Shown here one piece after another: positions 20,145 to 30,177 of a DNA stretch of 35,244 nt. The stretch is from the NCBI GenBank assembly GCA_024402495.1, contig JAKSTR010000023.1:1-35244 (forward strand), read 5' to 3'. The number at the start of each line of letters is the position of its first letter. The first letter of the stretch is position 1. Source of the stretch: Treponemataceae bacterium. GTDB taxonomy: Bacteria > Spirochaetota > Spirochaetia > Treponematales > Treponemataceae. The notes under the pieces are model-generated. The model did not search any database and was not told where the DNA came from. It saw only the letters and a program-made list of their open reading frames with translations. The position numbers and the translations under genes were made by a program.

Positions 20145-22232
20145 ATGGCTGAAAAAGTCGGCAGTTTATTAAAAAGTTTAAGTGAAAACTTTATGGCCGT
20201 TACTGCGGTTATAGTTGTTTTAATGCTTATAATTCCGTTGCCAACACCGGTACTTGACCTTTTAATGGCATGTAACGTGCTTCTGGCACTTTTAATGCTT
20301 CTTATCGTAATTTACACTCGCAAAGCCGTAGATTTTTCTTCGTTTCCTACGATGCTTTTGGTTTCTACCGTTTTCAGCCTTGGTTTGAACGTTTCTTCAA
20401 CTCGCTTGATTTTGTCTAAGGGGTTGAAATTTAACGGAAAAATGGTAGGCGCGTTTGCCAATTTCGTTGTTGGCGGCGACGGCGGAACTGAAAGCCTGTT
20501 AATCGGTTTTGTAATTTTCATCATTATTATTGCCGTACAGACCTTTGTTATTACAAAAGGTGCTACCCGCGTTGCCGAAGTTGCAGCCCGTTTTACCTTG
20601 GACGCGATGCCGATGAAGCAGGCAGCAGTTGAAGCCGAATATAATTCCGGCGCAATCAGCGAAGAAGAAGCCCGCCGCCGCAAGCTAGAAGTTCAGCACG
20701 AAGCAGATTTTTACGGTTCTATGGACGGTGCTACCAAATTTATCAGCGGAAACGTAAAGGTCGGCATTTTTATTACCGTTATCAACCTGGTTGTGGGCGT
20801 TATTTTCGGTATGGTGCTTCGCGGCGAAGCCTTTAATGTTGCACTTGGAACATATGCAAAGTTTACAATCGGCGACGGTTTGCTTTCCCAGCTTCCTTCT
20901 TTGTTAATTTCTTTTGCAACCGGTTTAATTGTTACCCGTTCTGCCAGCGACAACACAATGAGCGCCGACGTAAAAAAGCATTTTTCGCAGAATGCGTGGG
21001 TTTATTTTGTCAGCGGCGTAACTCTGGCAATTATCGGTATTTTGCCGGGCTTCCCGTGGTATTTCCTTATTCCAATGGGCATTGCGCTGATTTATCTTGG
21101 CGTGCGCCTGCGCAGAATTGAACAGAAAAACTTCGCCGCGCAACTTGAAAAAGAAAAGAATAAAAACAAACCGGCGGCACATACCGGCGAACAGGCTGAA
21201 ACCAGCCCGATTGTTCCGTTAGATCCTCTTTCCCTTGAACTTGGTTTTGCTCTTATTCCGCTTGTAGATAAAGAAAAAGGCGCGGAACTTCTGGAACGCG
21301 TTACTCGTATTCGCCGCGAAACAGCCCTTGATCTCGGTCTGGTTGTGCCGCGCATCCGCATTATTGATAACATGGCACTTGAACCAAGCGAATACTGTTT
21401 TAAAATCAAGGGTGTGCCGGTTGGTCAAAGTAAAATCCGCATGGGCTGGTATATGTGTATGAATACCGGCGGCGTTATTGAAGAAATTTCTGGCGAAAGA
21501 ACCACAGACCCGGCTTTTGGTCTGCCTGCAATCTGGATTACGGAAGACCAGCGCGACCGCGCAGAACGTGCCGGATATGCTGTTGTTGATCCGCCGACAA
21601 TTATTGCAACCCATTTAACAGAAATCATTAAAAGCCACGCAGAAGAAATTATCGGGCGGCAGGAAGTTGCCGGTATTATTGAAAATTTGCGCAAGGATTA
21701 CCCGGCGGTTGTGGACGAAGTTACAAAACTGTTTACAGTCGGCGAAGTGCAGAAAGTATTGCAGCGTCTTTTGCGTGAACAGGTTTCAATCCGCAATAAC
21801 GTAGTAATTTTGGAAACAATGGCTGACTACGGTCCTGTAACAAAACAGACTGATATTCTGGTAGAAAAAGTTCGTCAGGCTTTAGGTCGCCAGATTTGCT
21901 TGCAGTATGCCGATGAAGAACGCACTTTGCACGTTCTTACTGTTGAACCGGCATTCTTGCAGAAACTTGTAGAAAGCCGGATTGATACAGTAAATGGTCC
22001 TATGGCTGCTTTGGAACCTGTTGCACAGCGTTCATGGATTTCGGCATTAAGTATGGCAGTGGCTTCAGTACAGGAAAAAGGCTTTATGCCTATAATCTTG
22101 TGCCCGGAAGAAGCCCGTATTTTGGTAAAATCAAGTTCAGAACGCGAAATGCCTGGTCTGGTTGTTCTTTCTGTGCCAGAAATTACGAAAGATATAAAAG
22201 TTGAATCTTTGGGAGAAATAAAAGTTGGCTGA
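20145..22232 (+). CDS. flhA: Flagellar export gate/nonameric ring protein FlhA
   Basis: 695 residues, full family length. The N-terminal membrane half (about 15-330) has the FHIPEP signature region, including RFTLDAMPMKQAAVEAEYNSGAI and the ISEEEARRRKLEVQHEADFYGSMDGATKF segment. A linker (about 330-360) leads to the cytoplasmic ring domain (about 365-695), which docks chaperone-substrate complexes. GAGGGTGG precedes the ATG. A 102-nt spacer with a small GCTT/AAGC hairpin separates it from flhB. The stop codon is overlapped by the flhF start. Confidence 0.97.
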   Translation: MAEKVGSLLKSLSENFMAVTAVIVVLMLIIPLPTPVLDLLMACNVLLALLMLLIVIYTRKAVDFSSFPTMLLVSTVFSLGLNVSSTRLILSKGLKFNGKMVGAFANFVVGGDGGTESLLIGFVIFIIIIAVQTFVITKGATRVAEVAARFTLDAMPMKQAAVEAEYNSGAISEEEARRRKLEVQHEADFYGSMDGATKFISGNVKVGIFITVINLVVGVIFGMVLRGEAFNVALGTYAKFTIGDGLLSQLPSLLISFATGLIVTRSASDNTMSADVKKHFSQNAWVYFVSGVTLAIIGILPGFPWYFLIPMGIALIYLGVRLRRIEQKNFAAQLEKEKNKNKPAAHTGEQAETSPIVPLDPLSLELGFALIPLVDKEKGAELLERVTRIRRETALDLGLVVPRIRIIDNMALEPSEYCFKIKGVPVGQSKIRMGWYMCMNTGGVIEEISGERTTDPAFGLPAIWITEDQRDRAERAGYAVVDPPTIIATHLTEIIKSHAEEIIGRQEVAGIIENLRKDYPAVVDEVTKLFTVGEVQKVLQRLLREQVSIRNNVVILETMADYGPVTKQTDILVEKVRQALGRQICLQYADEERTLHVLTVEPAFLQKLVESRIDTVNGPMAALEPVAQRSWISALSMAVASVQEKGFMPIILCPEEARILVKSSSEREMPGLVVLSVPEITKDIKVESLGEIKVG

Positions 22233-23586
22233 TTATACAAGAGAAAGTTACCAGACTAGGGAAGAACATAGTATTACCAAGTCAACTTATGTCGAAGCAG
22301 TTGAAGAAATGTACCGTCTTTATGGAAGAGACAGCACAGTTTTAAATCATCAAACTGTAACTTATGGCGGTTTTTTAGGTATCGGGCAGAAACTTGGCGT
22401 AAAAGTTACATTCGTACCCGGTCGTTCTTCTTTGCCTCAGCGCCCTGTAGCACAGCAACCGGTAATGCCGCAGCCTGTAAGCCCAAATTACCGTTCAGCG
22501 CCGGTTAAGCCGGCATCTGCTGCACCAACTTTGCAGGAAAGTACACGTACAGTTGCCGCAAATACCAATAGTTTGGAAGAAGCCAAAAAGAAAATTTTAA
22601 ATACCGTGCCGACACAGGTAATGGAAGATATTCGTTACAAAGAGCTGGTAAACCAGATTAAGCAGCTGAACGAAAGCTTGAATAATTATCAGCGCGGTGG
22701 CGTTGTAGAACATCCTTCAATTCAAAAAATTCAGTCATTGCTTGAAAGAAACGAATTTTCACCGTCTTATATTCGCACTATGGTAAGCCGTCTGCGCCGT
22801 GAACTTTCGGTTGACGATTTGGAAGATTTTGATGTCGTGCAGACCAGCGTAATTTACTGGATTGCTGAAACAATTAAAATAGATGACTATTTTACAAGCG
22901 ATGATTTTTTTACTTTTCCACAGGCAATTATTTTGGTTGGTCCAACCGGCGTAGGTAAAACCACAACCGTGGCAAAGCTTGCGGCAAACTGCTGCGTTTC
23001 AACAAAATTTAATCGCGAAAACCCTTGCAGGGTTCGTTTGATAACTAACGATACTTTCAGAATTCAGGGACAGCAGCAGCTTGAAAGCTATGCAATGTGG
23101 ATGGATATTCCTGTCAGTATTGCAGAAAAACAGGATGATTTGAAAGTTTGTTTTGCTCAATATAAAGATCGCACCGATTTGTTCTTTGTAGACACTTTCG
23201 GTGTAAGTCCAAGCGATTTTGAAAAGCTTGGCGAAGCCCGCGGCTTGCTAGATTTTAAGGAAATTGAAACAAAAGTATTTTTAACTATTTCTGCAACGAC
23301 AAAAGCAAGCGATGTTTTAAACATTATCAAGCAGTTTACGCCTTTTGAGTTTTCCGGCGTAATTTTAACTAAGATTGATGAAACTGAAAAAATCGGTAAT
23401 ATAGTAAGTTCTTTGTACGAACGCAATATGAAAATTGCGCTTGTTACAAACGGGCAGATTGTACCGGGTGACATTCAAACGGTTACAGCTTTAGACCTTA
23501 TGAAATATTTGGAAGGTTTTGAAGTAAATCGTGAGCGCTTAAGACAGCGCTTATCGGCAAAAAAAGCCGATAATAAAGAAAAATAG
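22225..23586 (+). CDS. flhF: Flagellar SRP-type GTPase FlhF
   Basis: 453 residues; places and counts flagella at the pole with FlhG. A basic/Pro-Gln-rich N-terminal domain (1-150) precedes the SRP-type NG domain: G1 GPTGVGKTTTVAKLA (239-253), NDTFRIQGQQQLESYA (G2 region), FFVDTFGVSPSDFE at the G3 position, and TKIDETEKIGN (G4 region). In most relatives G3 reads DTAGR; here it is DTFGV, losing the Arg. The start is TTG at 22225, overlapping the flhA stop, with GGGAG upstream; no nearby ATG fits. Confidence 0.93.
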   Translation: MADYTRESYQTREEHSITKSTYVEAVEEMYRLYGRDSTVLNHQTVTYGGFLGIGQKLGVKVTFVPGRSSLPQRPVAQQPVMPQPVSPNYRSAPVKPASAAPTLQESTRTVAANTNSLEEAKKKILNTVPTQVMEDIRYKELVNQIKQLNESLNNYQRGGVVEHPSIQKIQSLLERNEFSPSYIRTMVSRLRRELSVDDLEDFDVVQTSVIYWIAETIKIDDYFTSDDFFTFPQAIILVGPTGVGKTTTVAKLAANCCVSTKFNRENPCRVRLITNDTFRIQGQQQLESYAMWMDIPVSIAEKQDDLKVCFAQYKDRTDLFFVDTFGVSPSDFEKLGEARGLLDFKEIETKVFLTISATTKASDVLNIIKQFTPFEFSGVILTKIDETEKIGNIVSSLYERNMKIALVTNGQIVPGDIQTVTALDLMKYLEGFEVNRERLRQRLSAKKADNKEK

Positions 23587-23613: not shown

Positions 23614-24474
23614 ATGGAAGATCAAGCAGCACGTTTGCGTGAAATGATGCAGGCACAAAAAGCTAAAAAGACCAGAATTATTACCGTAACCAGCGGAAAG
23701 GGCGGTGTAGGTAAAACAAATATTGCAGTAAACCTTGCAATTGCTTACGCCCAGACCGGTAAAAAGGTAATTCTTATTGATGCCGACCTTGGACTTGCAA
23801 ACGTTAACGTAATTTTGAATATGGTTCCGCAGTTCAACTTGTACCATGTTATTACCAAACAGAAAAAAATGTCCGAAATCATTCTTCCAACTGAATTTGG
23901 CATAAAAATTATTGCAGGTGCAAACGGTTTTTCTCGTATTGCAAACCTTAACGAAGAAGACCGCATGAATTTTATTCATGAATTTGAAACACTTTCTTCG
24001 GCTGATATTATTATTATTGATACAAGTGCAGGTATCAGTAACAATGTTTTGGGCTTTGTTGAAGCTGCTGACGAAGTTTTGATTGTTACGACGCCGGAAC
24101 CAACAGCTATTACCGATGCTTACGGCATGATTAAAATCATTGCTACCGAAACTGACAGCCTTAAACTTAATCTTAAGCTTGTTGTAAACCGCGTTCATTC
24201 AAGTGCTGAAGGCCGCAAAATCAGCGACAGAATGACTACAATTGTAGGTCAGTTTTTGAACTGCAAGGTAGAATACATGGGCTTTATTTATGACGACCCG
24301 GTTGTAAGCCAGTCGGTTGTACGCCAGAAACCGTTTATTATTGCAGAACCAAATTCTAAACCGGCAATTTGCATTAAGCATATTGTTAGCCGCATTGAAA
24401 AAATTGAAATTGAAAAACCGGCTGGAATTTCTGGTTTTGTAGATAAATTGATGGGAAGAAACTGGACAGCATAA
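23614..24474 (+). CDS. flhG: Flagellar number regulator FlhG (YlxH, MinD-like ATPase)
   Basis: 286 residues; MinD/ParA-type ATPase that stimulates the FlhF GTPase. The N-terminus has the DQAARLREMM activator helix typical of FlhG. Deviant Walker A SGKGGVGKTN (27-36), switch I DADLGLANVNVIL, Walker B IIIIDTSAGIS, and TTPEPTAITDAYGMIK are visible. The C-terminal amphipathic membrane-targeting segment is likely at ISGFVDKLMGRNW. It follows flhF by 27 nt with AAGGAT as ribosome-binding site. Confidence 0.95.
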   Translation: MEDQAARLREMMQAQKAKKTRIITVTSGKGGVGKTNIAVNLAIAYAQTGKKVILIDADLGLANVNVILNMVPQFNLYHVITKQKKMSEIILPTEFGIKIIAGANGFSRIANLNEEDRMNFIHEFETLSSADIIIIDTSAGISNNVLGFVEAADEVLIVTTPEPTAITDAYGMIKIIATETDSLKLNLKLVVNRVHSSAEGRKISDRMTTIVGQFLNCKVEYMGFIYDDPVVSQSVVRQKPFIIAEPNSKPAICIKHIVSRIEKIEIEKPAGISGFVDKLMGRNWTA

Positions 24475-24638: not shown

Positions 24639-25337
24639 ATGAATAAAACTAAAGTTTTGCTTACTGCTGGTACTTGCGGTTTTGTTCTTTCCCTTTTAGT
24701 CGGTTTAATTTCCAGAGTATCTTTCGGTGTTGTTTTTTTACGTGCTATTCTTTTTGCCTTGGTTTTTGCCGGTATTGCAGCTTTAGGTCAGTTTATTTTT
24801 GAACGTTTTTTAGAAAATACCGGTTCTGTTATTAGCGGCGGCACAGGCGCAGTCGGCAATGAACAGGATACGAAAGGGCAGTTTGTAGATATAAAAGTTG
24901 ATGACGCTGTTTTTCCAAATGAAGAAAATGCGCCGCTTTTCCAGATACCAAAAGAATTAAAGCCTGATTGGGTAAATAACGGTCAGTCAAAAACTTCAGC
25001 TGGTTCGGCTGCTAAAACCAATTCTGCTTCTTCTCAAGGTGACGACGGTGCAGAACCTCTTTTTTCAATACCATCGGTTATTCAGCAGACAGATGAACCG
25101 CTTTTTACGCCTGTTCAAAATAATCCTGCACCGTCTTCCGACGAGGCTGAACTAGGTATGCTGCCCGATATGGGTTCTATGCTTTCTGATATGCAAAATT
25201 CTTCAAATGATGATATAATAGTAACTTCTGATTTTGCTAACTCTGGCGACACTGGGCGTTCAGGTGCGATGCAAGCCGCGGATACAGAAATTATAGCAAA
25301 AGCTATTCATACTGTTTTAGCGCGGGATAACAGCTAA
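24639..25337 (+). CDS. Membrane protein of unknown function in the fla cluster
   Basis: 232 residues, not a family I can name. Two predicted membrane helices (about 6-24 and 29-50) are followed by a long hydrophilic, probably disordered tail with Ser/Asp/Gln-rich stretches and three short recurring 'PLF.IP/PLFTP' motifs (about 94, 143 and 164). It occupies the position of the uncharacterised gene between ylxH and fliA in the T. pallidum fla region. GGGGG precedes the ATG. The 164-nt AT-rich gap upstream may contain a promoter but no clear pair was found. fliA follows 11 nt later. Confidence 0.7.
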   Translation: MNKTKVLLTAGTCGFVLSLLVGLISRVSFGVVFLRAILFALVFAGIAALGQFIFERFLENTGSVISGGTGAVGNEQDTKGQFVDIKVDDAVFPNEENAPLFQIPKELKPDWVNNGQSKTSAGSAAKTNSASSQGDDGAEPLFSIPSVIQQTDEPLFTPVQNNPAPSSDEAELGMLPDMGSMLSDMQNSSNDDIIVTSDFANSGDTGRSGAMQAADTEIIAKAIHTVLARDNS

Positions 25338-25348
25338 GGGTGAATAAA

Positions 25349-26137
25349 ATGGCTACTTCGATTTTTGATGAAAAAAGTGAAGATGAACTTTGGATTGAAT
25401 ATAAAAAAACACGCTCGCCGGCATTAAGAGATGCGTTTATTCGGCAATATATGCCTTTGGTAAAATATGTTGCAGGTAAAGTTTCTACCGGTATGCCCGG
25501 TAATATTGAATTTGACGATTTAGTCGGTTTCGGTCAGTTTGGTTTGCTTGATGCAATTAATAAATTCGACCCTGAAAAAAATGTAAAATTCAAAACTTAT
25601 GCCGTAACCCGTATTCGTGGTGCAATTTTTGACGAATTGCGTTCAATTGACTGGGTTCCGCGTTCGGTACGCCAAAAAAGCCGCGAAATTGAAGATGCAA
25701 TCAGCCGCCTTGAATCAAAACTTGGTCGCACGGCAACCGATGCCGAAATTGCAGGTTCAATGGGTATCAGCGAAGAAGATTTTCAGCAGACAGTTCTGAA
25801 AGTTTCCGGTACAAGTATTCTTTCTCTAAACGATATTTGGTATTCGGGTGATGATTCTGACCATGTTTCTATTGGTGACTGCATTGAATCGCCTGCAAGC
25901 CTGAATCCGGATGTTATCGTTGAACGTGAAGAAGTTCGCCGGGTTATTATAGAAGCAATTAACGAACTGCCAGAAAAAGAAAAATACGTTTTGATTTTGT
26001 ATTATTACGAAGATTTGACATTTAAAGAAATCGGTCAGGCACTTGACGTAAGCGAATCGCGTATTTCTCAGCTGCATACAAAAGCAAACTTGCGCCTTAG
26101 AGCCAAATTAACAAATATTCGCAAAGGTATTCTGTAA
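25349..26137 (+). CDS. fliA: Flagellar sigma factor FliA (sigma-28/WhiG family)
   Basis: 262 residues; directs RNA polymerase to late flagellar and chemotaxis promoters. Region 2 contains YMPLVKYVAGKVS and GNIEFDDLVGFGQFGLLDAINKFDP, then FKTYAVTRIRGAIFDELRSIDWVPRSVR. Region 3 has GRTATDAEIAGSMGISEEDF. Region 4 contains LPEKEKYVLILYYYEDLTFKEIGQALDVSESRISQLHTKA, the -35-binding helix-turn-helix. ATG 25349 is preferred to GTG 25340 because AAGGGTG (25336-25342) is then 6 nt upstream. Together with the preceding gene it forms a tight unit. Confidence 0.96.
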   Translation: MATSIFDEKSEDELWIEYKKTRSPALRDAFIRQYMPLVKYVAGKVSTGMPGNIEFDDLVGFGQFGLLDAINKFDPEKNVKFKTYAVTRIRGAIFDELRSIDWVPRSVRQKSREIEDAISRLESKLGRTATDAEIAGSMGISEEDFQQTVLKVSGTSILSLNDIWYSGDDSDHVSIGDCIESPASLNPDVIVEREEVRRVIIEAINELPEKEKYVLILYYYEDLTFKEIGQALDVSESRISQLHTKANLRLRAKLTNIRKGIL

Positions 26138-26149
26138 AAGGGGGAATCA

Positions 26150-28123
26150 ATGGTCACACTTGAAGAAATTCGTGCAGAATTACAGAAAAAACTTCAAATT
26201 GATCAGGTTTTGCGCACTGTTGAAGTTCATGCAGACACTTTGGACGAGGCTCTTGCCGATGCTGCCGTACAGTTGCAAACCAGAGTTGCCTTTTTGGAAT
26301 ATGAAATAGTTGAACGCGGTTCTGAAGGTTTTATGGGCATTGCCAAAAAACCGTGGGTAATTACCGCCTACGAATCTGCGGAAGCTGCCATTGCCCGTGA
26401 AAAACTTAAGGGCAAAACAACTGTTGAAGGCGGCGAAGAAGCTGCTGAAGAGCAGATTATTACTGATAAAGACGCACAGTTCTTCATTCATTATTTTAAT
26501 AATGAAATCATGCTCAAAGTCGTTCCGCCTGTTGGTGCCGGTGCAAAGCTGAATTATAAAGAAGTTTTGAAGTCGGTAAAAACCGGTGATGCTTACGAAA
26601 TAGACGAGAGTGCAATTAAAAAGACCGTTGAACACGGTGATACCGAGGGCAATTACGATCACATCGGTACATTCATTCAAAATCCTGTTAACGACGCAGT
26701 ATTTACTATTGATATTTCCGGTGATGAAATGACGGCAACAATTACTGCAACTGCACCAAAAGAAGACGGCGGTGAAATTGTTGGCGATATTATTGAACGC
26801 CAGCTGATAAAACATAATGTTTCTGTCGGTATTGATCAGGAAAAAATCGCCGCATTTGTTGATAATCCAGTTTACGGCGAGCCTGTAGTTGTTGCCGAAG
26901 GCATTAAGCCGCACGACGGAAACGACGCTTATATTAAATACAATTTTGAAACAGATGTAAGCAAGCTTAAGGTAAAAGAATCTGAAGACGGTAAAGTTAA
27001 CTTTAAAGAGCTCAACCGTGTTCAAAACGTTGTTGAAGGTCAGCCTTTGGCACAGAAAATGCTTGCCGAACGCGGTAAAGCCGGTAAAACTTTGTATGGC
27101 CGCTATCTTGAAGCCAAAAACGGAAAAGATATTCCTATTCCGCTTGGTAAAAATGTACGCCTCGATTCTGACGGCCGCACAATTCTTGCCTGCTGTAACG
27201 GACAGGTTTTGTTTAACGGTAAAATCAACGTTGAACCGGTTATGGAAGTTGAAGCCGTTAACGTTAAAACCGGTAATATTACATTCCTCGGTACTGTTAT
27301 TGTTAAAGGCAACGTTGAAGACGGCTTTAATGTTAAGGCTTCTGGTAATATTGAAGTTTATGGAACGGTCGGATGTTCTCAGCTTGAAGCCGACGGCGAT
27401 ATTGTTGTTTCTCTGGGTATTATGGGACGCGATGAAGGAACGATTAAATGCGGTCGTTCTCTTTGGGCAAAGTTCATCCAGAATACAAAGGTTGACGTTG
27501 ATGAAAACATCATTGTAAACGACGGTATTATCAACTGTAATGTAAGCTGTAAAAAACGCATTATTCTTCAGGGTAAACGTGCTGCAATTATTGGCGGTCA
27601 TTTGTTTGCAACAGAAGAAATTAACGCCAAAAATATTGGTAGTAACGGCGGTGGTAGCGAAACCATTCTTGAAGTTGGCTACGATCCTGTAAAGAAACTT
27701 CGTCTTGATGAATTGCAGGCAAGACAGGCGGAAGTTGTTCAGTTGCTTGAAGAAGTTAACCTGAATATTACAACTCTTGAAAATTTGAAGAGTTCGCGCA
27801 AAACTCTGCCGCCGGAAAAAGAACAGGCTTATGAAGATTTGATTCACCAGAAAGGTGATTACCTTGATGAAACAGAAGCTATTGCCAAGGAAATTCAGGA
27901 AATTCAAGATTATCTGCGTGACTTGAAGGCAATTGGTAAAGTATCAGCATCAGGCAATATTTATCCTGGTGTAAAAATATTTATTCGTGATGTAAAAGAA
28001 GAAATTCGCGCCGAAATGAAGAGCGTTACTTTCTATCTTGAAAACGGATTTGTTCGCCAGGGTAAATACGAACCTGTTGGCGATGACGTAAGACGGACAC
28101 CGGATGGGTATTCAGCCAATTGA
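26150..28123 (+). CDS. Jag_N-FapA (DUF342) polymer-binding-like protein
   Basis: 657 residues. Residues 1-65 form a Jag_N-like domain (DTLDEALADAAVQLQTRVAFLEYEIVERGSEGFMGI). From about 105 to 640 is the FapA/DUF342 region: an N-terminal wing, a right-handed beta-helix rich in Gly/Asn/Val turns (e.g. GNITFLGTVIVKGNVEDGFNVKASGNIEVYGTV) and a coiled-coil segment (about 525-590) before the final beta unit (VSASGNIYPGVKIFI). The family occurs in flagellar clusters of Firmicutes and spirochetes next to the sigma factor; function is not established, though cell-envelope or polar localisation roles are suspected. GGGGGA stands before the ATG at 26150, 12 nt after fliA. Confidence 0.85.
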   Translation: MVTLEEIRAELQKKLQIDQVLRTVEVHADTLDEALADAAVQLQTRVAFLEYEIVERGSEGFMGIAKKPWVITAYESAEAAIAREKLKGKTTVEGGEEAAEEQIITDKDAQFFIHYFNNEIMLKVVPPVGAGAKLNYKEVLKSVKTGDAYEIDESAIKKTVEHGDTEGNYDHIGTFIQNPVNDAVFTIDISGDEMTATITATAPKEDGGEIVGDIIERQLIKHNVSVGIDQEKIAAFVDNPVYGEPVVVAEGIKPHDGNDAYIKYNFETDVSKLKVKESEDGKVNFKELNRVQNVVEGQPLAQKMLAERGKAGKTLYGRYLEAKNGKDIPIPLGKNVRLDSDGRTILACCNGQVLFNGKINVEPVMEVEAVNVKTGNITFLGTVIVKGNVEDGFNVKASGNIEVYGTVGCSQLEADGDIVVSLGIMGRDEGTIKCGRSLWAKFIQNTKVDVDENIIVNDGIINCNVSCKKRIILQGKRAAIIGGHLFATEEINAKNIGSNGGGSETILEVGYDPVKKLRLDELQARQAEVVQLLEEVNLNITTLENLKSSRKTLPPEKEQAYEDLIHQKGDYLDETEAIAKEIQEIQDYLRDLKAIGKVSASGNIYPGVKIFIRDVKEEIRAEMKSVTFYLENGFVRQGKYEPVGDDVRRTPDGYSAN

Positions 28124-28430
28124 TTTGCAGACGCTTTTTACGCAGCTTGATAAGGTTGGAAAAACACAATTCCAGCAAACCCAGGCTGCGCAATTGCAGA
28201 ATGCAATGGTACATGACGAAATTTCTCGAAAACAGGCAGCCCAGAAAGAAGCAGTAGAAAAAACTGCGGATCTTCAGGACGAGCTTGAAGTACGGGAAAA
28301 CAAAGAACATTCTTCTTCCGGCGGACAGCGCCGCAAAAAAAAGGATAATTCAGAAGATTCTGCACCTGAACAAGAAAAACAGTATTTTTCGGATCCGGGT
28401 TTGGGTCAGCACATCGATATTTCGGGTTGA
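28104..28430 (+). CDS. Small conserved-context protein, function unknown
   Basis: 108 residues, overlapping the end of the FapA gene by 20 nt in another frame and ending 2 nt before the next start. The N-terminal half is helical and Gln-rich (LFTQLDKVGKTQFQQTQAAQLQNAM), the centre is strongly charged (RRKKKDNSEDSAPEQEK) and the C-terminus is a short hydrophobic-capped tail (GLGQHIDISG). No signal peptide or membrane helix. Overlap and position argue for a real, translationally coupled gene. I do not recognise the family. Confidence 0.7.
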   Translation: MGIQPIDLQTLFTQLDKVGKTQFQQTQAAQLQNAMVHDEISRKQAAQKEAVEKTADLQDELEVRENKEHSSSGGQRRKKKDNSEDSAPEQEKQYFSDPGLGQHIDISG

Positions 28431-28432
28431 TT

Positions 28433-29197
28433 ATGGAAAGTTTAATTTTTTCAATGTTTGTTCTTGTAATCAATTTGGTTTTATGGTTGGTTTTCTTTTA
28501 CAAATTCAAAACAACATATTCGCCTGAACGGGTTTTAAAAAGCATTCGCGTTGAAGTTGACAAGCTTTTTACCGAAATTATGCGCACAACCGAAGAGGAC
28601 GTAACCTTGATAGAAGCGCGCATTGCCGGTTTAAAAGATTTGATAGCACAGGCTGATGAACGCATTTTATTGGCAGAAAAAGAATTAGCCCAGCGCCAGA
28701 ATGAAAAGCAGGTGCTTTCTGCACTCGAAACCAAAAAAACTCGCGAACCGAAAAGCAAAAACTTAAACCAGCGGAAATTGTCGCGGTATGAACAGAATGT
28801 TTTTGAAAACACAATGCAGCCTTCTTTAATAGAAGAAAACGTGCAAAATGATTTTAGCGATTCTGTTGAAGTTTCTGTTCAGCAGTCGCTTTTTGCGCCG
28901 CCGCAGCCTGCACAGCCGCCAATGCCGGATATTGAAATTGAACAGTTTAATCCGCCGGTAGTTGAACAATATGCCGTTGCGGAAAATCATCAGACTTTTG
29001 AACCTTATTCTGGTTTTGAACCTGCGCCTGCGAATGACGTAATTTCGGTACCGACAACGCCAAAAGAAAAAATAGAGTTTTATTTTAATCAGGGTCTTGA
29101 AGTTGAAGCCATTGCAGAAAAAATCAACGTGCCGATAAGTCAGGTTCGTTTGGTTGTAAGTATGTACGAAGCTTCCAAAAATTTCAATTCAAAGTAG
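28433..29197 (+). CDS. Membrane-anchored coiled-coil protein with C-terminal helix-turn-helix (SwrB/DUF6115-like)
   Basis: About 254 residues. One N-terminal membrane helix (about 3-22), a charged coiled coil (about 36-110), a Pro/Gln-rich linker (about 135-205), and a C-terminal helix-turn-helix-like segment (KEKIEFYFNQGLEVEAIAEKINVPISQVRLVVSMY). This layout and its place after a flagellar sigma factor recall SwrB, which follows sigD in Bacillus and activates export-gate assembly; similarity is architectural and not proven. ATG 28433 is preferred to TTG 28427. The ribosome-binding site is weak, suggesting coupling to the preceding gene. Confidence 0.72.
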   Translation: MESLIFSMFVLVINLVLWLVFFYKFKTTYSPERVLKSIRVEVDKLFTEIMRTTEEDVTLIEARIAGLKDLIAQADERILLAEKELAQRQNEKQVLSALETKKTREPKSKNLNQRKLSRYEQNVFENTMQPSLIEENVQNDFSDSVEVSVQQSLFAPPQPAQPPMPDIEIEQFNPPVVEQYAVAENHQTFEPYSGFEPAPANDVISVPTTPKEKIEFYFNQGLEVEAIAEKINVPISQVRLVVSMYEASKNFNSK

Positions 29198-29265: not shown

Positions 29266-30177
29266 ATGAAAAATTACAGATATAATTTTGAAAACTGGTT
29301 TGATACTGATTTGGAATGGAAACAGACATTTCAGATTAAAGATTTTTTTCCAAATGACGGTTTGTGGAAATTTAGCGATTTTTTGCCGCGTGTTACGTTT
29401 TTTTCTGTTTTTGGTGATAAAAATGCAATTAAAAAAAGCCGTGCAAAAACAAAAATATTTTTTACCGGCGAAGATACCAGCCAGAATTTTACCGATTTTA
29501 ACGACCATTGTGTTGGCGATGCCGATTTGAGCATTGGTTTTGCAAGTGAAGAAAGTGTAAACGCGCCAAATTACATTCGTTACCCGCTGTGGCTTTTGTA
29601 TTATTTTGGCGAATACAAAACTTTGCCGCAGATTCAAACTGCAATTGACGAATTTAATTCAAACTGGAAGCTAAAACCGAACAAACGTTTTTGTGCCCTT
29701 GTTGCCGCCCACGATAAATTTGGTACGCGCAAAAGACTTTGCGATATTTTAAACCAGATTCAGCCTGTAAGCTGTGGCGGCAGGCTTTTTCATAACGATG
29801 ACAGTCTTGTTAACGATTTTTCCAACGATAAAGAAACCTATCTGCAAAATTTCATGTTCAATCTTTGCCCCGAAAATGTTTCTGCGCCCGGATATGTTAC
29901 TGAAAAAGTTTTTCAGTCGCTGGCGGCGGGGTGCATACCGATTTATTACGGTAGCTGCGGCATTGCAGAAGAACAGATAATCGATCAGTCGAAGATAATT
30001 ATTTTTAACGGCAATAACGACAGCGAAGTTTTGGAAAAAGTCCGCAATTTGTATCAAAATCCGGAAGAATATGCAAAAATGTTCGCCGCGCCGCCAATTA
30101 AACCGGAAGCCGCCCAATGGATTTTTGAAAAAAATCAGCAGCTTGAAGCAAAATTAAAAGAAATATTAAAGGCGTAA
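29266..30177 (+). CDS. Glycosyltransferase family 10 (fucosyltransferase-like)
   Basis: 303 residues. The C-terminal half contains the GT10 donor-binding signature: FMFNLCPENVSAPGYVTEKVFQSLAAGCIPIYYG (196-229), where the family has ...FENS...GYVTEKI...AGCIPIYWG. GDP-fucose is the usual donor, giving alpha-1,3/1,4-linked fucose; the acceptor cannot be read. No signal peptide or membrane helix, so cytosolic. It lies 68 nt after the flagellar cluster on the same strand. Whether it modifies flagellin, lipooligosaccharide or another glycan is open. No clear Shine-Dalgarno before the ATG; a weak GAACG/CGTTC hairpin (30202-30216) follows. Confidence 0.88.
   Translation: MKNYRYNFENWFDTDLEWKQTFQIKDFFPNDGLWKFSDFLPRVTFFSVFGDKNAIKKSRAKTKIFFTGEDTSQNFTDFNDHCVGDADLSIGFASEESVNAPNYIRYPLWLLYYFGEYKTLPQIQTAIDEFNSNWKLKPNKRFCALVAAHDKFGTRKRLCDILNQIQPVSCGGRLFHNDDSLVNDFSNDKETYLQNFMFNLCPENVSAPGYVTEKVFQSLAAGCIPIYYGSCGIAEEQIIDQSKIIIFNGNNDSEVLEKVRNLYQNPEEYAKMFAAPPIKPEAAQWIFEKNQQLEAKLKEILKA

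Follow-up and report, generated by a model that had tools for sequence, protein, structure and literature searches.

What unites the three closely spaced genes that follow the flagellar sigma factor gene in a treponeme, and what could they do for the flagellum? The question is raised by contig JAKSTR010000023.1 of a Treponemataceae bacterium (assembly GCA_024402495.1), whose whole stretch of 35,244 nucleotides (nt) is referred to here as the window. After fliA, at positions 26,150 to 29,197, it carries fapA, an open reading frame (ORF) for a protein of 108 amino acids (aa) and an ORF for a protein having an N-terminal transmembrane (TM) helix, a coiled coil and a C-terminal helix-turn-helix (HTH) end, called the TM+HTH protein below. 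This trio probably lies at the far end of a module for the placement and licensing of flagella, flhF-flhG-flgV-fliA-fapA-108-TM+HTH, which would be linked to the C-ring and FlhF and act at nascent basal bodies, a reading to which a probability of roughly 0.55 is given. It draws on the parts, their order and coupling, their restriction to flagellated spirochaetes and their profile relations, as these appear from the sequences. An original prediction, made from the letters of the window, had located the trio after fliA, and its location, its coordinates and the 20-nt overlap of its first two genes all proved correct. The features concerned are the following:

22225..23586, plus strand: flhF, recognized by the NCBIfam FlhF models
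about 22258-22422, plus strand: N-terminal domain of FlhF (first ~66 residues), beta-alpha-beta-beta, resembling Jag_N and the FliG-interacting domain (FID) of FlhF in an AlphaFold2 model compared by VIA-align
23614..24474, plus strand: flhG, MinD-type ATPase, with an N-terminal DQAARLR corresponding to the motif DQAxxLR, whose role is described in PMC11236974
24639..25337, plus strand: flgV-like protein of 232 aa with two TM helices, an arginine in the second and a polar tail
25340..26137, plus strand: fliA/whiG, flagellar sigma factor (sigma28), TIGR02479 at 285 bits (cut-off 189.6)
26150..28123, plus strand: fapA, 657 aa, with Jag_N at residues 27-74 (about 26228-26371), FapA_N at 185-356 and the FapA beta-solenoid at 363-633
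28104..28430, plus strand: the 108-aa protein, overlapping fapA by 20 nt
28427..29197, plus strand: the TM+HTH protein, 256 aa, SwrB-related and FipA-like
about 29054-29167, plus strand: C-terminal residues G223, I229, Q239 and L242 of the TM+HTH protein

On the plus strand, the order is flhB, flhA, flhF, flhG, the gene of the 232-aa two-helix membrane protein, fliA, fapA, the 108-aa ORF and the 256-aa ORF, with fapA starting 12 nt past the end of fliA. The last ORF opens with a TTG at 28427, and an ATG at 28433 corresponds to the start position in its relatives.

Distribution in Spirochaetota

The distribution of the three genes was followed in 246 Spirochaetota genomes at least 90% complete, 232 of them with FlhA and 14 without. 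FapA scored over its cut-off in 229 of the 232 FlhA-positive genomes, the TM+HTH protein was present in 213 and the 108-aa profile matched in 171, whereas each of the three was found in 0/14 of the FlhA-negative genomes. The link to the flagellum and the conservation far beyond close relatives, both put forward in the original prediction, are borne out by these counts, the trio being neither confined to close relatives nor equally conserved in non-flagellates. The 14 FlhA-negative genomes also lack FliG and all come from one family, and Fisher values for the co-occurrence of trio and flagella overstate the evidence because these genomes are a single clade. In a published passage on the flagellar collar protein FlbB, the coccoid, non-motile Sphaerochaetaceae are described as the spirochaetes lacking that protein.

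A partial loss is seen in a genus with three genomes (f10 g47; L186, L187 and L188). Its locus has no FlhG, FlgV, FapA or 108-aa gene but retains FlhF, FliA and a TM+HTH match, of 114 aa in L188. The best FlhG matches in this genus have E values of 8.6e-4 to 3e-9, where a relative from its family reaches 1.5e-110. This loss, a single event, puts FapA and the 108-aa protein together with FlhG. In a further relative, with 1.14 Mb (L185), the TM+HTH gene directly follows fapA, and the 108-aa gene and FlgM were not found. The flgV-fliA-fapA-TM+HTH half of the locus is inverted in this relative with respect to the flhB-flhA-flhF-flhG half.

Gene Order and Neighbourhood

Regarding gene order, fapA and the 108-aa gene lie on one strand in 84 distinct loci, counted after removal of repeats and leaning towards Treponemataceae, and the TM+HTH gene follows on the same strand in 80 of them. 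The start of the 108-aa gene overlaps the fapA stop in 58/84 of these loci, by exactly 20 nt in 45/84, and the recurrence of this exact overlap in many diverged species suggests a constrained translational coupling. Among 30 FapA-centred loci from across the phylum (L083-L112), the 108-aa gene was seen in 25 and the TM+HTH gene in 21, counts in which short flanks can hide genes and repeats of the same genomes are included. L091, an extreme locus, did not pass the filter on start patterns. Their recurring order makes the three genes a set by more than chance, but a strict trio is not universal, as the 108-aa protein was not found in 61/232 FlhA-positive genomes and the parts are split in several families. 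Where FapA lies elsewhere, in family f25, the 108-aa gene still adjoins the TM+HTH gene in all three loci opened (L180, L181 and L184).

The parallel with Firmicutes drawn in the original prediction is real. In Acetoanaerobium, the order is FlhF, FlhG, che genes, a small membrane protein, FliA, FapA and TM+HTH, and in Bacillus velezensis SwrB stands directly after sigD. As described in 2024 for Borrelia FlgV (PMC11607428), neighbourhood analysis places a submodule "sigma28, FapA, YjfB, TM+HTH" beside FlgV, FlhF and FlhG in spirochaetes, Firmicutes and others; the window, with the same gene set and type of order, is another instance of this flgV superoperon submodule. The trio had been taken for a poorly described module, which is half right: the set was already named in that paper, where FapA, YjfB and TM+HTH are interpreted by neighbourhood alone, SwrB is not named in the text searched, and neither FipA nor Jag_N appears in sections 8 and 17. 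The arrangement of the genes is known from that work; what looks new is the links to SwrB, FipA and FlhF. A SwrB–FipA link may already be in print, given that "SwrB" is counted three times by the text index for the FipA paper and is absent from the main text consulted.

The 232-aa ORF at 24639-25337 is very likely, on the features of its sequence, the FlgV of PMC11607428. It has no Pfam or NCBIfam match, and it shows the two TM helices, the arginine in the second and the place between flhG and the sigma28 gene that define FlgV of type 1. In addition, the profile of its family matches the gene between fapA and flhG of a Borrelia-like genome (E 7.5e-12), which is the place of bb0268/flgV.

The TM+HTH Protein and Its Relation to SwrB and FipA

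In the AlphaFold2 model of the TM+HTH protein, an N-terminal helix of membrane length (residues 2-30) is followed by a long one (33-106), and a linker modelled with low confidence leads to an HTH at the C-terminus (212-255). Its family was aligned from 56 of 63 sequences (A2), and a further alignment (A4) from 39 of 43, near-duplicates or doubtful starts being left out; hydropathy supports the single N-terminal membrane helix in 55/56 members. The C-terminal end resembles DUF6115, the C-terminal family of SwrB: the window protein reaches 18.1 bits, under the cut-off of 27, relatives in L104 (30.9) and L189 (30.8) pass it, and 49/56 members match at E <= 0.1 (best 6.4e-8). DUF2802, the FipA domain, is matched by 16/56 at the same threshold (best 1.5e-6), on the same C-terminal stretch as DUF6115.

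Searching outwards, the spirochaete profile matches the B. velezensis gene directly after sigD (E 1.9e-10) and the Acetoanaerobium gene directly after FapA (E 1.3e-5). The former is labelled as a hypothetical protein in its record, and the name SwrB is applied to it because of its place after sigD and its DUF6115 match, which passes at 35 bits. The likeness to SwrB of Bacillus extends from the N-terminal membrane helix through a coiled or charged middle to the C-terminal HTH-like end found by the spirochaete profile. On the other hand, swrB directly follows sigD, while fapA and the 108-aa gene intervene between fliA and the TM+HTH gene in the window, and the window protein is longer and below the Pfam cut-off. 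In PMC4526659, SwrB is stated to be conserved solely in Bacillus.

This resemblance brings in another explanation, which takes up the export-gate activation suggested in the original prediction and in which the TM+HTH protein is a SwrB orthologue pushing FliF and FliP to a secretion-ready state, FapA and the 108-aa protein assist and FlhF is uninvolved. The finding of SwrB by the spirochaete profile agrees with it, as does the action of B. subtilis SwrB through FliF and FliP reported in PMC4526659; however, the spacing of residues typical of FipA is also found on the HTH end, and export-gate activation without FlhF is considered a rather unlikely account of the trio. The two readings are not mutually exclusive, because the genome carrying SwrB also has FlhF.

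That spacing comes from V. parahaemolyticus FipA. According to PMC11620751, full conservation is seen at G110, E126 and L129, and binding to FlhF is lost in the G110A and L129A variants but not in E126A. The pattern, a glycine followed by E at +16 and L at +19, also occurs in the Aeromonas FipA and B. velezensis SwrB sequences. At positions 0, +16 and +19, the TM+HTH family has G in 50/56, E in 52/56 and L in 33/56 members, with all three in 29, and the window protein bears the FipA-type glycine (G223) and the leucine at +19 (L242). FipA of polar-flagellate gammaproteobacteria shares with the TM+HTH protein the TM helix, the coiled region and the C-terminal G-x15-E-x2-L, and its gene lies by a flagellar operon with flhF, flhG and fliA, as in the window. 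A Foldseek search with the HTH end returned HTHs of the LuxR/NarL type, the best at E 0.29. Considering the membrane anchor and the conserved E/L spacing, a use of this end in protein binding appears to fit better than DNA binding.

FapA and the N-Terminus of FlhF

FapA of the window is a regular member of its family, scoring 249.1 bits for FapA (PF03961, cut-off 31) and 161.3 bits for FapA_N (PF20250, cut-off 27). Proteins from Treponema and from uncultured Spirochaetaceae are its closest public relatives, with 54-76% identity along the whole length. Jag_N scores 53 bits, above the Pfam cut-off, and is present in 34/34 FapAs scanned. Vibrio FapA, flagellar assembly protein A, which binds dephosphorylated EIIA-Glc (PMC6877527), can be related through a Vibrionaceae plasmid FapA that is matched by the FapA domains of the window protein (tblastn); in the one Vibrionaceae plasmid opened, the gene is outside a sigma28 cluster. 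A polar placement of Vibrio FapA appears solely in titles of the PMC6877527 reference list.

The Jag_N domain had led the original prediction to RNA binding or elongasome partners. On such a reading, FapA would either regulate RNA in the manner of KhpB/EloR or work with the machinery of cell elongation. Besides the 53 bits of Jag_N, the match of the FapA N-terminus to the Jag structure 3gku (E 2.4e-7) speaks for this; nevertheless, the Pfam scan gave only Jag_N besides the FapA domains, with no KH or R3H domain, and the flagellum-less family grows and divides although it has no FapA. A role of this kind is very unlikely, and RNA binding by FapA is rejected, the KH and R3H domains of Jag/KhpB/EloR being missing.

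Judged by profile, the Jag_N of FapA most resembles the N-terminus of FlhF. The opening 60 residues of the window FlhF are not covered by any Pfam model. An unanchored profile comparison of the FlhF N-terminus (42 sequences) with the FapA N-terminus (72) gives a probability of 94 and E 1.5e-7 over 59 columns, whereas the best of 40 control comparisons, which used other segments of operon proteins, has E 0.035. In 200 column shuffles, the highest score is 20.1, far from the 40.2 of the real match. The result is similar when eight FlhF from outside the family of the window are used (E 2e-7) or when FapAs from across the phylum are compared to the FlhF N-terminus (E 1.7e-7).

Structurally, an AlphaFold2 model of the FlhF N-terminus (83 aa, mean predicted local distance difference test score 75.7) has as its best VIA-align match the Shewanella FlhF FID (9en1, Z 6.5 over 45 residues), followed by Jag 3gku (Z 5.6); the FlhF N-terminal sequence profile found neither 9en1 nor 3gku among PDB sequences. 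The modelled domain resembles the FID of PMC11236974 by structure and the Jag_N of FapA by profile, and the putative likeness of FapA to the FID comes from this profile link via spirochaete FlhF. As described in PMC11236974, the Shewanella FID binds FliG, lets it meet FliF and blocks FliM/FliN. Given this activity and the resemblance of Jag_N to the FlhF N-terminus, FapA may dock on FliG or on the partner of FlhF.

The flagellum-less family (f13; e.g., G206, G254 and G237), devoid of FlhA and FliG, retains full-length FlhF, at E <= 2.2e-47 in 11 of its 14 genomes and at about 1e-23 in three. The N-terminal domain is included in both loci opened (L196:8524-9714, minus strand, and L197:8553-9743, plus strand), where flhF adjoins hslU; in flagellate relatives (L228 and L229), the flagellar superoperon lies downstream of hslVU. 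As full-length FlhF is kept in this family, it seems to have a job outside flagella.

The 108-aa Protein

The 108-aa protein has two conserved ends, MxIxPIDLQ at the N-terminus and DPxLGxxIDISG at the C-terminus, and a charged, poorly conserved middle. In an alignment (A1) of 64 of 76 non-redundant sequences, near-duplicates or doubtful starts being left out, M1, P5, Q9 and G101 are invariant. It has no believable Pfam match. The YjfB label given to the small gene in PMC11607428 was not reproduced, as the window protein has no match to YjfB_motility (PF14070) at E <= 1 and a single one of the 64 relatives has one (E 0.038).

The 61 FlhA-positive genomes lacking a match comprise 33 of family f7, to which the Borrelia-like genome belongs, the 1.14-Mb relative, the three genomes of the single genus, which also lack FapA over its cut-off, and 24 others from lineages in which the profile performs poorly. 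A single f7 genome was opened; between FapA and TM+HTH it has a 109-aa ORF ending SDPKIGRNVDVER, a diverged copy (13 bits), so that 171/232 is a lower bound. Stand-alone 108-aa genes in families f29, f36 and f41 (L173-L179) have no module gene adjoining, save a weak FliA-profile match (8.9e-5) in L177.

Being small, charged and beside fliA, the 108-aa protein could be taken for a FlgM-like anti-sigma factor on which FapA or the TM+HTH protein acts, with the trio serving sigma28 control. However, it does not match FlgM (PF04316) at E <= 1, and a separate FlgM is encoded elsewhere in its own genome (C118:20955-21134), as FlgM matches are in 194/246 panel genomes. Moreover, the Borrelia-like genome, from a family with no sigma28 over the cut-off, still has its diverged 108-aa-like gene in place, while the 1.14-Mb relative has sigma28 and lacks the 108-aa gene. 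The location of FlgM elsewhere makes an anti-sigma role unlikely, and sigma28 control as the business of the trio is very improbable.

Proposed Mode of Action

In the proposed placement and licensing module, the TM+HTH protein would sit in the inner membrane and hold its coiled coil into the cytoplasm, its C-terminal HTH-like end gripping a partner and not DNA, most likely FlhF, as in FipA, and/or the nascent basal body, as in SwrB. FapA, a putative cytoplasmic beta-solenoid, may dock by its N-terminal Jag_N on the C-ring (FliG) or on the partner of FlhF. The 108-aa protein, with a predicted disordered middle, two conserved ends and frequent translational coupling to fapA, could tether FapA to the TM+HTH protein. 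Acting together, the three would keep FlhF, FliG and FliF where the flagellum is assembled, so allowing export or C-ring completion to proceed.

Several observations weigh against this module. The 14 flagellum-less genomes probably represent one loss and not 14 independent events. Plasmids of Haliovirga, Peptoclostridium and Salinivibrio (L193, L194 and L195) also encode FapA-family proteins, outside any flagellar cluster, so that FapA domains alone do not imply flagella, and the Acetoanaerobium FapA has no Jag_N match. Regarding the FlhF–FapA likeness, three non-spirochaete FlhF alone compared to FapA_N give E 0.0035, at the level of shuffles, and the Z values of 6.5 and 5.6 are modest, since unrelated dodecins reach 5.0 with the same FlhF model. 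The N-terminal domain of FlhF need not signify FliG binding either, because it persists in genomes without FliG.

The link of the TM+HTH protein to FipA, as judged from sequence comparison, is weak, and weaker than that to SwrB. DUF2802 (cut-off 33.5 bits) is not matched by the window protein, and the best relative examined individually reaches 28.7; the TM+HTH profile ranks Aeromonas FipA first among the ORFs of its locus, yet at E 0.051. The protein is labelled SwrB-related and FipA-like, not FipA, because no relative examined passes the DUF2802 cut-off and because of this Aeromonas value. Furthermore, the window protein has Q239 in place of glutamate at +16, and generic HTH models match some of its relatives.

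A bolder version unites SwrB of peritrichous Bacillus, FipA of polar gammaproteobacteria and the spirochaete TM+HTH protein in a single ancient family, whose members would anchor FlhF and the nascent basal body to the membrane. FapA would then carry a second copy of the FliG-docking domain of FlhF, FlhF and FapA would compete for, or hand over, one FliG site, and the trio would supply the connection, missing so far, from FlhF/FlhG placement to the change-over to export. This extension is speculative and, taken as a whole, doubtful. If the three proteins were one family, results from Bacillus, Vibrio and spirochaetes could be read together, and if FapA held an FlhF-like docking domain, the function of this widespread protein would become directly testable with FliG. 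Landmarking beyond the monotrichous type is described as unclear in PMC12826062, and the locus bears on how the position and number of flagella are determined by FlhF, FlhG and their membrane anchors in bacteria other than gammaproteobacteria.

Other Observations

A search of a viral fold library gave no useful match. The gene after the trio, at 29266-30177 on the plus strand, encodes a fucosyltransferase-like protein of glycosyltransferase family 10.

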